Shown: positions 23,222 through 26,959 of the stretch, piece after piece
How the letters are laid out: each line of letters starts with the position of its first letter
How positions within the stretch are numbered: position 1 is the stretch's first letter
NCBI GenBank assembly: GCA_015663235.1
Contig: DQSL01000057.1
Coordinates: 1-33,817 of the forward strand
Origin: Mariprofundaceae bacterium
GTDB lineage: Bacteria > Pseudomonadota > Zetaproteobacteria > Mariprofundales > Mariprofundaceae
Direction: 5' to 3'
Length of the DNA stretch: 33,817 nucleotides
Notes under the pieces: generated by a model
What the model was told of the DNA's origin: nothing
Database searches by the model: none
The model's input: the letters and a program-made list of their open reading frames with translations, nothing else
Program-made: the position numbers and the translations under genes

Positions 23222-24172
23222 ATGTCCGTTTATACAGAATTAACCACACAAGATTTCAACAATATTTTAGCTGGTTATTCGCTTGGGAAACTGCAAAGTT
23301 TCACGGGCATTGCCGCAGGCATTGAAAACAGTAATTTTTTCTTGGAGATGCAAGGTGGAACGCGATATGTGTTGACCATTTTTGAGCGATTGAATGCTGA
23401 TGAGCTTCCCTATTTTATGCGTTTGATGAAACATTTAGCTAGCCATGGTTTGAAAAGCCCTGATGTGTTGGTGCGCAATGACGATTCACTTATTTTCGAT
23501 TTTGAAACGGATGACGGTGTTAAACAAGGTTGTATCGTGTCTTGCTTAACAGGTGAGACTTTAGACTTTTTAAATCAAGCTCAGCTTCGCTCATCAGGCG
23601 AAGCATTGGCGACGTTACACATGGCAGGCAGCAGCTTTGATGAACATAGAGACAACCCAACAGGCTTTGATTGGCTGGAAGATAACATTCAAAATATGCA
23701 AGCCGATGTAGAAAAGATATATGGTGCGGAAGCGCTTGCCTTGCTTAATGATGAGCTGGCTTTTCAAAAGCAGCAACGTGTCAGTGGTTTGCCTAGCGGC
23801 GTGATTCATGGTGATTTATTTACGGATAACATCTTGTTTATGGGTAATGATGTTTCAGGGGTAATTGATTTCTATTATGCCCATCACTCATCTTTTGCCA
23901 TGGATATTGCCATTGCCATCAATGCGCAAGCCATTGTACTTGGTGATGAGGATGAAGCTCGTATGGCAGCATTTTTGGCAGGTTATGAATCCAAACGTGT
24001 GCTCCAAGCCAGTGAAAAAGATGCGCTGAATGGTTTGCTGCGACTGGGTGCATTGCGCTTTTGGGTATCGCGGTTGTTTGATGCTTTGTATCCTAGAGGT
24101 GGTGCGATGACGCAAACCAAGGACCCTGAAGAATACCGTAGGAAGTTACTTTCCCATAAGTTGACAGAGTGA
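23222..24172 (+). CDS. thrB: Homoserine kinase, aminoglycoside-phosphotransferase fold
   Basis: SVYTELTTQDFNNILAGYSLGKLQSFTGIAAGIENSNFFLE; GVIHGDLFTDNILF. Confidence 0.93.
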   Translation: MSVYTELTTQDFNNILAGYSLGKLQSFTGIAAGIENSNFFLEMQGGTRYVLTIFERLNADELPYFMRLMKHLASHGLKSPDVLVRNDDSLIFDFETDDGVKQGCIVSCLTGETLDFLNQAQLRSSGEALATLHMAGSSFDEHRDNPTGFDWLEDNIQNMQADVEKIYGAEALALLNDELAFQKQQRVSGLPSGVIHGDLFTDNILFMGNDVSGVIDFYYAHHSSFAMDIAIAINAQAIVLGDEDEARMAAFLAGYESKRVLQASEKDALNGLLRLGALRFWVSRLFDALYPRGGAMTQTKDPEEYRRKLLSHKLTE

Positions 24173-24231: not shown

Positions 24232-24486
24232 ATGTTTACGAAAATAAGTACAAATAACGGTTGCAGCACCATGTTTGATGATGGCTGCCACAGTAGTGTT
24301 TATCAGACACGGTCGTTATAGTGTCTCAGATTTGAAAAAGAATCCGATTAAAGTTGTGGGGCACAAGGTGAAGGTTTTCCTATTGCTGTGCTGAATAGGA
24401 ACACCCCTGATTGTGCGCCTGCGAAAGCTTATGAAGCGTTGATGGATAGATTGGAAGACTTGGAATTGAACGCAAGCCGTGTATAA
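24232..24486 (+). pseudogene. Phd/YefM (StbD-like) antitoxin remnant, frameshifted, no adjacent toxin
   Basis: Fragments VSDLKKNPIKVVG and, in another frame, AQGEGFPIAVLNRNTPDCAPAKAYEALMDRLEDLELNASRV*, separated by stops and shifts. Confidence 0.7.
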
Positions 24487-24534
24487 AAAAAGTGGCGGCT
24501 AAGCGGTAATCAATGATGACTTAACGATGTTACT

Positions 24535-24584
24535 CACAATACCGCCGCCAACAAGTTTATCTCCACATAAAATACAGCGACTTG
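24535..24584 (-). repeat. Diverged second copy of the mnmA 3' tail (direct repeat of 25862-25912)
   Basis: Hand alignment gives 45 of 51 columns identical (5 mismatches, 1 gap). Minus-strand translation retains ...DKLVGGGIVSNIVK versus ...DELVGGGIVSTIVK in mnmA. Confidence 0.85.
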
Positions 24585-24620
24585 ACATTCTTTATTCTAG
24601 ATTCCAGAATATGGAATAAA
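24582..24620 (+). promoter_or_regulatory. Candidate sigma70-type promoter with overlapping dyad operator
   Basis: TTGACA (24582-24587), 17-nt spacer, CAGAAT (24605-24610). Symmetric dyad TTTATTC-TAG-ATTC-CA-GAAT-ATG-GAATAAA spans 24591-24620. Confidence 0.6.
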
Positions 24621-24644
24621 TTAGAAGGGAGGGAGAGTGTTGTC

Positions 24645-25160
24645 ATGAGGCTAAAAGAAGAAGATATATATGTTGGTCTTAAACTGGTCGTTCTTAGGAA
24701 TGAGCCATGGTCTATGCAGCGCATTGGGGAGTCATTAGGGCTTAGTGCATCAAGGGTGCATGGTGCTATTCATAGGTTATTAAAAGCAAATTTGATTCGT
24801 AAAGACAAAGGTTACAAAGTTATATCAGCTAATCTCAAGGAGTTTCTAGTACATGGCATTCGATTTGTATTTGTTCCTGATATAGGCGAACCATGTAGAG
24901 GTATGCCAACAGCATCGTATGCAGCGCCATTGAACATAGACTTTTTTGAAACAAACCATTTGCCTCATGTTTGGCCTGATGCGGAAGGTGAGGTGAGGGG
25001 CATTTCTTTCTCCCCACTTTGTAAACATGTGCCTAAAGGTGCGCGTAGCGATGCAGAGTTGTATGCGCTGCTGGCGTTGGTGGATGCTATTCGAGGCGGG
25101 CGGGCAAGAGAACGAAATATGGCGATTGAACAAATCAAACAAAAACTATCTACTAAATGA
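24645..25160 (+). CDS. Winged-helix DNA-binding protein, candidate AbiEi-like antitoxin/autoregulator
   Basis: WSMQRIGESLGLSASRVHGAIHRLLKANLIRK HTH region. ATG at 24645 follows GGGAGGGAG, and the stop overlaps the next ATG (ATGA). Confidence 0.75.
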   Translation: MRLKEEDIYVGLKLVVLRNEPWSMQRIGESLGLSASRVHGAIHRLLKANLIRKDKGYKVISANLKEFLVHGIRFVFVPDIGEPCRGMPTASYAAPLNIDFFETNHLPHVWPDAEGEVRGISFSPLCKHVPKGARSDAELYALLALVDAIRGGRARERNMAIEQIKQKLSTK

Positions 25161-25860
25161 GTCCGCAAGACCCAAATGTGGAAATGCTAGAGTTGGTGAG
25201 TAGTGGGTTAAGTTATCTTACTGATGAAGTTGTATTTCTTGGTGGCTGTGCTGTCGGCTTTCTGATTACAGACCCAGCAGCAGCACCGATAAGGGAAACA
25301 AAAGATGTGGGTGTTATTGCTGAAATCACAAGCCACCAAGATTACTATGATTTTTCACAGAAATTACCGATTTAGGATTTCGCGAAGATAGAAGCGAAGG
25401 TGCTCCAATGTGCCGTTGGGTTTATCAATCGATTGCTGTGGATGTGATGCCTATAAATGAGGATATTCTTGGCTTTAGTAATAAGTGGTATGATAAAGCA
25501 ATGGATAACGCTAAAACAGTATCACTTCGTAATGGTGATATCAGAATGGTTTCTGCGCCTTATTTTTTAGCGACCAAATTGGAGGCATTTTATGGGAGAG
25601 GACGGAATGATTATATAGCAAGTCACGACCTTGAAGATTTAATTGCGGTGTTGGATGGTAGAGCTAGCCTTGTACAAGAGGTGCTAGAAAGCTCAGAAGT
25701 TTTACAAGTATATTTAACGGATGCTTTTGAAAAACTGCTTAGCAATGATGATTTTTTGGATGCGTTACATGGGCATGTATTAGCGGATGCTGTAAGTCAG
25801 TCTCGTGTTGTTATCGTACAAGAAAGAATGCGTAAAATAGCGGCTATTTTACAATCGTAG
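25157..25860 (+). pseudogene. AbiEii-like nucleotidyltransferase, disrupted by frameshift
   Basis: First part ...VFLGGCAVGFLITDPAAAPIRETKDVGVIAEITSHQDYYDFSQKL, then a -1 shift near 25366-25370, then DLGFREDRSEGAPMCRWVYQSIAVDVMPINEDILGFSNKWY...APYFLATKLEAFYGRGRNDYIASHDLEDLIAVLDG. Confidence 0.8.
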
Positions 25861-26959
25861 ACACAATACCACCACCAACAAGTTCATCGCCCACATAAAA
25901 TGCAGCGACTTGCCCTGGCGCAGTTGGTTTTTGTGGGTCATCAAAGGTGAGCGAAGTGTTACCAGCATCAACTGTGATAACGCATGGTGATGGGCGCATT
26001 TGATAGCGGACTTTGCTTAATACCTGCTCACCTGCTTTGATGTTTCTAAGCCATGTGGTTTCAGCTACGGATACTTCACGAATCAGCGCATCGGCTGGTG
26101 GCGCAACAATTACACGCGCTGTTGTGCCATCCATCTCAACAACATGCCAAGGACCATTGGGAAGCCCCAAACCTTTGCGTTGCCCTAGCGTGAAATGGGC
26201 AATGCCTTTATGTCTGCCCAAGATATTGCCTTCTCTATCCATAATATCACCAGCGCGGAAACCAGCTTCTGCACCTTCTTTTTTGAGGAATGCAATGCGA
26301 TTGCCCGCAGGGATAAAACAAATATCTTGTGACTCATGTTTTTCAGCGGTCATCAAATCATAATGGCGGGCTAAAATGCGCGTACCATCTTTTTGTAAAT
26401 GACCGACAGGGAATAAAATTCTAGCAACTTGTTGTTTGTTGGTGGTGGCTAGAAAATAACTTTGGTCTTTGATTTGGTCGTTGCCGCGATAAATATGTAC
26501 GCCTTCATCATCATCTTTGCGTTGCACGTAATGACCTGTGGCAATAAATTCGGCTTCCAATTCATCGGCAGCATCAAGCAATGCGCCAAATTTCACAAAA
26601 CGATTGCAACGTTCACATGGGTTGGGTGTGCGCCCTGTTTCATAATCACTGATGAATGGGTCAATGACATTTTCGCGGAAATTTTTGCGCATGTCCATAT
26701 TGTAGAATGGAATACCGATTTGGTCGCAAACGCGCCTTGCATCATAGGCATCATCCAATGAACAGCATGAGCCATGCCCAGATACTTCATCACGATTGTA
26801 GTCCCACACATGCAAGAATACACCAATCACATCAGCACCCGCTTCTTTGAGCATGGCAGCCACCACAGAAGAATCCACACCGCCTGACATCGCAGCAATG
26901 ACACGCACACCTTTGAGGTGCGATAAGTCAGGCATAAGTGATTGAATGTCAGTGCTCAT
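25844..26959 (-). CDS. mnmA: tRNA-specific 2-thiouridylase
   Basis: VRVIAAMSGGVDSSVVAAMLKEAGADVIGVFLHVWDYN; TPNPCERCNRFVKFG; ATGHYVQR; GQRKGLGL. Confidence 0.98.
   Translation of the reverse strand: MSTDIQSLMPDLSHLKGVRVIAAMSGGVDSSVVAAMLKEAGADVIGVFLHVWDYNRDEVSGHGSCCSLDDAYDARRVCDQIGIPFYNMDMRKNFRENVIDPFISDYETGRTPNPCERCNRFVKFGALLDAADELEAEFIATGHYVQRKDDDEGVHIYRGNDQIKDQSYFLATTNKQQVARILFPVGHLQKDGTRILARHYDLMTAEKHESQDICFIPAGNRIAFLKKEGAEAGFRAGDIMDREGNILGRHKGIAHFTLGQRKGLGLPNGPWHVVEMDGTTARVIVAPPADALIREVSVAETTWLRNIKAGEQVLSKVRYQMRPSPCVITVDAGNTSLTFDDPQKPTAPGQVAAFYVGDELVGGGIVSTIVK

Follow-up and report, generated by a model that had tools for sequence, protein, structure and literature searches.

The stretch of DNA analyzed here (the window, 33,817 nucleotides of contig DQSL01000057.1) belongs to the genome of an iron-oxidising deep-sea zetaproteobacterium, which its named relatives place in the genus Ghiorsea. 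It is labelled G000 in what follows, with other genomes of the comparison set carrying G-numbers of their own and individual loci carrying L-numbers. Our subject is the gap between thrB and mnmA, two genes whose orthologues bound the corresponding gap in G002, G003, G006, G007, G008, G011, G013 and G015. In G000, an intact winged-helix gene and a broken nucleotidyltransferase gene lie between the complete mnmA gene and an orphan copy of the mnmA 3' end, which is in turn followed, on the thrB side, by what is left of a StbDE toxin-antitoxin pair (Table 1). The 3' end of the nucleotidyltransferase gene overlaps the end of mnmA, including its stop codon, by 17 bp. No RNA families were found in the window.

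Table 1. Features of the thrB-mnmA region of G000, in window coordinates.
Feature	Position	Strand	Basis and remarks
thrB (homoserine kinase)	23222..24172	+	ORF list; conserved right-hand neighbour of the variable gap
StbD/Phd-type antitoxin remnant, decayed	24232..24486	+	Recognisable stretch 24352-24477; frame broken
Putative last codons of StbE toxin (VAAKR-stop), remainder deleted	24492..24509	+	Short match
Displaced older mnmA 3' end (orphan tail)	24520..24584	-	Repeat alignment; adjoins StbE end
PDC-M21 left border and promoter	24582..24618	+	TTGACA at 24582-24587, then imperfect palindrome TATTCTAGATTCCAGAATATGGAATA at 24593-24618
PDC-M21A, winged-helix protein, intact, 171 aa	24645..25160	+	PADLOC E 7.8e-39
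PDC-M21B, nucleotidyltransferase, broken	25157..25860	+	PADLOC E 1.2e-11 and 4.6e-44 (two pieces)
mnmA (tRNA 2-thiouridine synthase), intact, 371 aa, newer tail	25844..26959	-	NCBIfam equivalog NF001138 E 5e-120; ORF

The two genes between the tails, which stand side by side on the same strand, correspond by profile to the PADLOC candidate defence system PDC-M21, while the Pfam matches of PDC-M21A to a MarR-like helix-turn-helix and of the window's PDC-M21B to AbiEii both fall below the cut-off. PDC-M21B is split into two pieces in different frames (25157-25375 and 25408-25860), and the second aspartate of its DxD motif, a motif that is invariant in 23 relatives, has become a glycine. With its frame broken and this residue lost, the copy no longer has a functional active site, and the PDC-M21 of G000 is a member by descent that is probably inactive in this genome. 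Intact copies of PDC-M21B exist in other genomes, and one such relative (L118) has the nucleotidyltransferase fold and the GG...DxD motif of AbiEii/MenT toxins. Namely, the best PDB matches of its AlphaFold model (pLDDT 93) are MenT1 (8an5, E 3e-6) and MenT3, and given this model PDC-M21 could plausibly act in defence or in the manner of a type IV toxin-antitoxin system. While the predicted fold is closest to these MenT toxins, PDC-M21 differs from the MenAT and AbiE systems in that the partner is the winged-helix protein, in which sequence searches recognised no relative of MenA or AbiEi, and in that the window copy of the nucleotidyltransferase is broken.

PDC-M21 is patchily distributed, being present in 18 of 78 genomes of the class and at differing loci. 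It also occurs in 120 plasmid records, at less than 60% identity and with no DNA-level match to the module among them, and none was found on phages. Neither Pfam nor PADLOC recognised a recombinase or a nuclease in the module. Across the class, PDC-M21 loci share the left border, and upstream of it conservation ceases. The imperfect palindrome between the -35 box and the winged-helix start codon is likewise conserved at these loci and is a likely operator for self-regulation of the module; in a second PDC-M21 subfamily the palindrome is another one, ATTCGCAAATCGCGAAT. G000, G008, G075, G081, G084 and G092 (whose locus lies at a contig edge) keep the winged-helix gene, with a nucleotidyltransferase that is either missing or broken, as would be expected were the latter the harmful member of the pair.

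A preliminary description of this DNA had reported that 24535-24584 and 25862-25912 are direct repeats with 45 of 51 columns identical, both encoding the MnmA C-terminus on the minus strand. Local alignment reproduced the count and the coordinates exactly (88.2%, E 5e-13), and both copies are indeed mnmA 3' ends on that strand, the one at 25862 being the end of the intact gene. The repeat is actually longer than first given, with approximately 65 columns at 81.5% identity (24520-24584 against 25848-25912), and it stops on the TTG (24582-24584) of the module's TTGACA. The orphan tail carries a 1-nt deletion and has lost its stop codon, and the differences within the pair lean synonymous (pS 0.35, pN 0.12), as had been read off the translations. 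What is more, the repeat clearly exceeds the background of such genomes: none of 444 control positions at the same loci has a flanking direct repeat at E<1e-6, and repeat-bounded inserts amount to a mere handful in 1.2 Mb of G023, a complete genome of the Mariprofundus group, together with 0.4 Mb of Ghiorsea DNA. A search of the whole G000 genome found no second copy of the module, no further copy of the tail and no other tail-plus-module DNA.

While the span originally assigned to the scar, 24535-25912, has the right coordinates, the scar is two-layered and reaches beyond it into the StbDE remnant at 24232-24509. The StbD remnant is 76% identical to the intact StbD of G003 (E 2.7e-14), and VAAKR-stop matches the AAAKR-stop with which StbE ends in G002, G003 and G015. 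In G002, the order is mnmA, 17 bp, stbE, stbD and thrB, with a single mnmA tail abutting the intact StbDE pair, and it is in this same way that the displaced tail of G000 adjoins the StbE end. For this reason, the distal, displaced tail is the older, native one, and since it belonged to an earlier arrangement, the module arrived, together with the present mnmA tail, between this older tail and the remainder of mnmA. In other words, StbDE lay beside mnmA before PDC-M21 arrived, and has since decayed.

The mnmA-thrB gap is a variable site in Ghiorsea. It contains a Ser/Thr kinase in G011, which G007 and G013 match in gap size, and it holds pta-ackA in G008, pta-ackA plus StbDE in G015 and StbDE in G002; each of these six readable gaps without PDC-M21 has one mnmA tail. 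The only other genome with two tails is G003, where an intact StbDE pair lies between them; G003 apart, the repeats are absent from the insert-free relatives with a readable gap. Consistent with the insertion first proposed, no Ghiorsea genome compared has a pair of mnmA tails with no accessory module separating them. Two further candidates were discarded, namely G011, where identically overlapping contig ends represent one gene, and G010, which stops at a contig break. In G006 (L038), mnmA and thrB have the same orientation, with surA, pdxA and other genes between them, so that the gap is rearranged.

G003 also offers a comparison with a sister genome, G014. The body of its mnmA differs from that of G014 at 64 of 954 sites (6.7%), the resident tail at 25 of 144 (17.4%, p 1e-4 against the gene body) and the displaced tail at 16 of 144 (11.1%, p 0.08). 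At the sites that can be polarised, G014 agrees with the displaced tail 11 times and with the resident tail twice (p 0.02). Because it is the displaced tail that agrees with the sister at these distinguishing sites, the resident tail of G003 is likelier the foreign newcomer, the displaced one appearing nearer to G014. In G000, which has no close sister and whose mnmA is variable from about nucleotide 840 onwards in nearly all pairs, the crossover point inside the gene was not located.

Flanking repeats recur at other loci of the class. Leaving out the row for G092, which is an artefact, 8 of 17 zetaproteobacterial PDC-M21 loci have them, as compared with 0 of the 444 control positions. Five of the eight look locus-specific, namely those at mnmA (G000), at the nrdJ end with its terminator (G023), at the cobA 5' end (G024) and in regions of G012 and G063, the genome-wide copy number being verified only for G000 and for G012, where there are exactly two copies. 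The remaining three (G032, G075 and G084) are terminator-like or dispersed, count for less and could be coincidental. The repeats vary in length, and their contexts include gene 3' ends, the one 5' end at cobA, and upstream regions. PDC-M21 lies near nrdJ in G023, in G032 and, going by coordinates, in G081. StbDE, for its part, is found at mnmA in several species, the clear StbDE/Phd-type cases being G003 at mnmA, G030 and G064 at cas1, and G020 at ilvE. The cas1 loci, where the gene was named by eye, are stacked: L241 (8255-10389, G064) and L240 (7191-9933, G030) have the order cas1, StbDE, cas1 tail fragment, a second toxin-antitoxin-like pair and a second cas1 tail fragment. In G020 (L242, 8275-10418), a 111-bp ilvE tail is duplicated at 93% identity around a PIN-toxin/antitoxin-like pair. 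An unbiased scan of the 1.2 Mb of G023, with gene names read by eye, gave two further cases, an HD-GYP gene with nth on one side and an orphan nth tail that looks intact on the other (G023:C1:527117-529321, L206), and a cluster of HigBA-like and HipBA-like genes flanked by direct repeats of 68 bp (78%; G023:C1:1131665-1135240, L320). With an HD-GYP gene between nth tails, the cargo of such scars is not limited to toxin-antitoxin genes. Outside the class, repeats flank 4 of 34 PDC-M21 loci as against 2 of 103 controls, and StbDE-type loci gave weak matches only (2 of 8, approximately 71-72% identity), with no clean pattern; within the sample, the repeat signal is mostly restricted to Zetaproteobacteria. 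A distant relative of PDC-M21A in G136 (L169) is flanked by 89-bp repeats of 95% identity with a tRNA 3' end inside them, which is an integrase site of the usual type, and some PDC-M21 relatives may travel on conventional islands.

How did the resident and orphan tails come to differ? All seven coding pairs, six of them independent if the cas1 cases of G030 and G064 are counted once as what is probably one event, have pN/pS of at most 0.5 (range 0 to 0.5). The ilvE tails differ by 6 synonymous changes against 1 nonsynonymous, and the nrdJ tails by 2 against 0. The nth tails, which differ by 26% over 78 nt, each resemble the tails of other species in the genus and look like genuine alleles. At ilvE, nth and nrdJ, and in G003, the orphan retains an open frame. 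In G000, the ratio of 0.33 comes from a short tail and is only weakly below the value of about 0.5 expected for an identical copy decaying after duplication. Because the differences are mainly synonymous, the tails fit better as alleles that had grown apart in separate lineages, each under selection, before they met and were brought together.

We therefore consider it likely that the module arrived with a donor mnmA end by one-sided homologous import, displacing the resident tail. The preliminary description had left two origins side by side, an element inserting with its own replacement tail and a foreign mnmA end recombined in, and it is the second that the synonymous divergence and the foreign resident tail of G003 favour. 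In particular, a related donor would have had PDC-M21 just downstream of its mnmA, and a fragment of this DNA would have entered the cell, where homology at its mnmA end alone let it recombine with the resident gene. One possible route is circularisation of the fragment followed by single-crossover integration; in the other, homologous recombination within mnmA would have been combined with an illegitimate join at the opposite end, inside the resident tail. By either route, the result would be an mnmA with the donor's end, then the module, and then the former resident tail, which, having lost its role, would decay. The outer junction coincides with the TTG, the 3 bp that the mnmA tail shares with the -35 box of the module, and, with the StbDE pair already beside mnmA, the import of PDC-M21 would form the second layer. 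An addiction or defence function may have favoured retention of the module.

The sequences themselves show the repeat and its recurrence, the relative age of the tails and their mainly synonymous divergence, the foreign resident tail of G003 and an insert that has no integrase ORF. Who the donor was, whether recombination was one-sided or by single crossover, how the DNA came in and why the module was retained is what we infer, and single crossover and one-sided illegitimate joining fit the data alike. Of 60 E. coli clones made by single crossover of circularised fragments, 56 carried a duplicated homologous end, 109-950 bp long in the 14 that were sequenced, while laboratory one-sided events (homology-facilitated illegitimate recombination) usually delete rather than duplicate (PMC3240628). 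The likeness lies in incoming DNA that is homologous at one end and in the duplication of that end; the difference is that those were laboratory constructs, whereas our reconstruction draws on natural sequence alone. ComEC is present in G000, as it is in E. coli, and DNA uptake by G000 is plausible. A search for PDC-M21 immediately next to mnmA found no such arrangement in any sequenced genome, so that the donor is hypothetical. Altogether, the recurrence of the scar suggests that toxin and defence genes of this kind move by exchanging the end of an adjacent gene for one they bring along, and not with an integrase.

An unlikely alternative is that the tails are attachment-site scars, left by an integrative element that entered the mnmA 3' end with a replacement tail and later lost its integrase together with most of its length. 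Integration at a 3' end does as a rule duplicate the tail and leave the displaced copy on the distal side, yet there is no integrase ORF in the inserts of 1.1-1.4 kb at mnmA, neither between the tails of G000, as had been noted from the start, nor in G003. An integrase-like fragment, read by eye, does lie upstream of the module in G027, and the relative in G136 has its repeat with the tRNA 3' end. However, an integrase family keeps one target, while PDC-M21 sits beside mnmA, nrdJ, the cobA 5' end and others, and a module that recurs next to unrelated genes, once at a 5' end, argues against one dedicated attachment site; StbDE, too, is found beside both mnmA and cas1. Likewise, the two G003 tails are identical over their first 24 nt and diverge thereafter, as a crossover core would, but in the ilvE copies of G020 a 59-nt identical stretch lies in the middle of the repeat, with divergence on both sides.

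Would the same picture arise if insertion of the module had simply duplicated 50-200 bp of its target, with the orphan copy drifting afterwards? Such a pattern has a name, insertion with long target duplication, given to restriction-modification systems by Nobusato et al. in 2000, and later papers that cite it describe long repeats of variable length, around 100 bp, with the mechanism given only as suggested (PMC1643837, PMC3031569, PMC3874152). The name fits (PMC1643837, PMC3874152), and so do the variable lengths of the flanking repeats at many PDC-M21 loci and the 97% identity of the nrdJ copies in G023. Nevertheless, we give this explanation little credence. The copies would be identical at birth and the orphan would gain nonsynonymous changes as fast as synonymous ones, which disfavours target duplication, since the divergence is mostly synonymous, with pN/pS at or below 0.5 throughout and with the orphan frame open in four cases. 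In addition, the nth tails look like two different species-level alleles, the resident tail of G003 appears foreign, and the module has no recognisable recombinase or nuclease. Finally, that the mnmA end and its neighbouring DNA were tandemly duplicated within one genome and the second copy then partly lost is very improbable: it would yield the same order of parts, and the stacking of module and tail at cas1 could be a remnant array, but it too predicts copies identical at birth, and the distal side in G000 has StbDE rather than a second PDC-M21, of which the genome has none.

One-sided import of a donor gene end shares features with both long target duplication and a second known pattern. 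Different gene sets can alternate in one gap between conserved genes through transformation and recombination in the flanks, with crossovers on both sides and no displaced gene tail left behind. In Neisseria, such units go by the term minimal mobile elements (PMC1538595). The mnmA-thrB gap resembles them in that the kinase, pta-ackA, StbDE and PDC-M21 alternate there, and is unlike them in its displaced gene tail. With long target duplication, our cases have in common small genes of a selfish or addiction type, the lack of mobility genes and variable direct repeats of about 100 bp derived from the insertion site. They differ in cargo and host, with PDC-M21, StbDE, other toxin-antitoxin pairs or HD-GYP in Ghiorsea and other Zetaproteobacteria, and in tail copies that differ synonymously, which points to an imported donor end. 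A literature search found no report of tail duplication around toxin-antitoxin genes, a weak absence given that the original papers of 2000 and 2010 were outside its reach. This suggests that what is new is the toxin-antitoxin or defence cargo and an end that is imported rather than duplicated.

A more general view can be offered as a tentative one, on balance not expected to hold. Namely, toxin-antitoxin and defence modules of Zetaproteobacteria may form a general class of integrase-free travelling cassettes that bring along the end of a core gene, displace the resident end and accumulate in layers at mnmA, cas1, nrdJ and ilvE, and the long target duplications of restriction systems may likewise be imported ends. 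For the movement of small toxin-antitoxin and defence genes that have no recombinase of their own, the only named pattern dates from 2000. Paired tails record donor against recipient and so provide a way of testing that pattern; the tails described here indicate that at least some duplicated ends are imported. In this sense, the signature of a core-gene end, a module and an orphan end can be used to screen genomes for such transfers.
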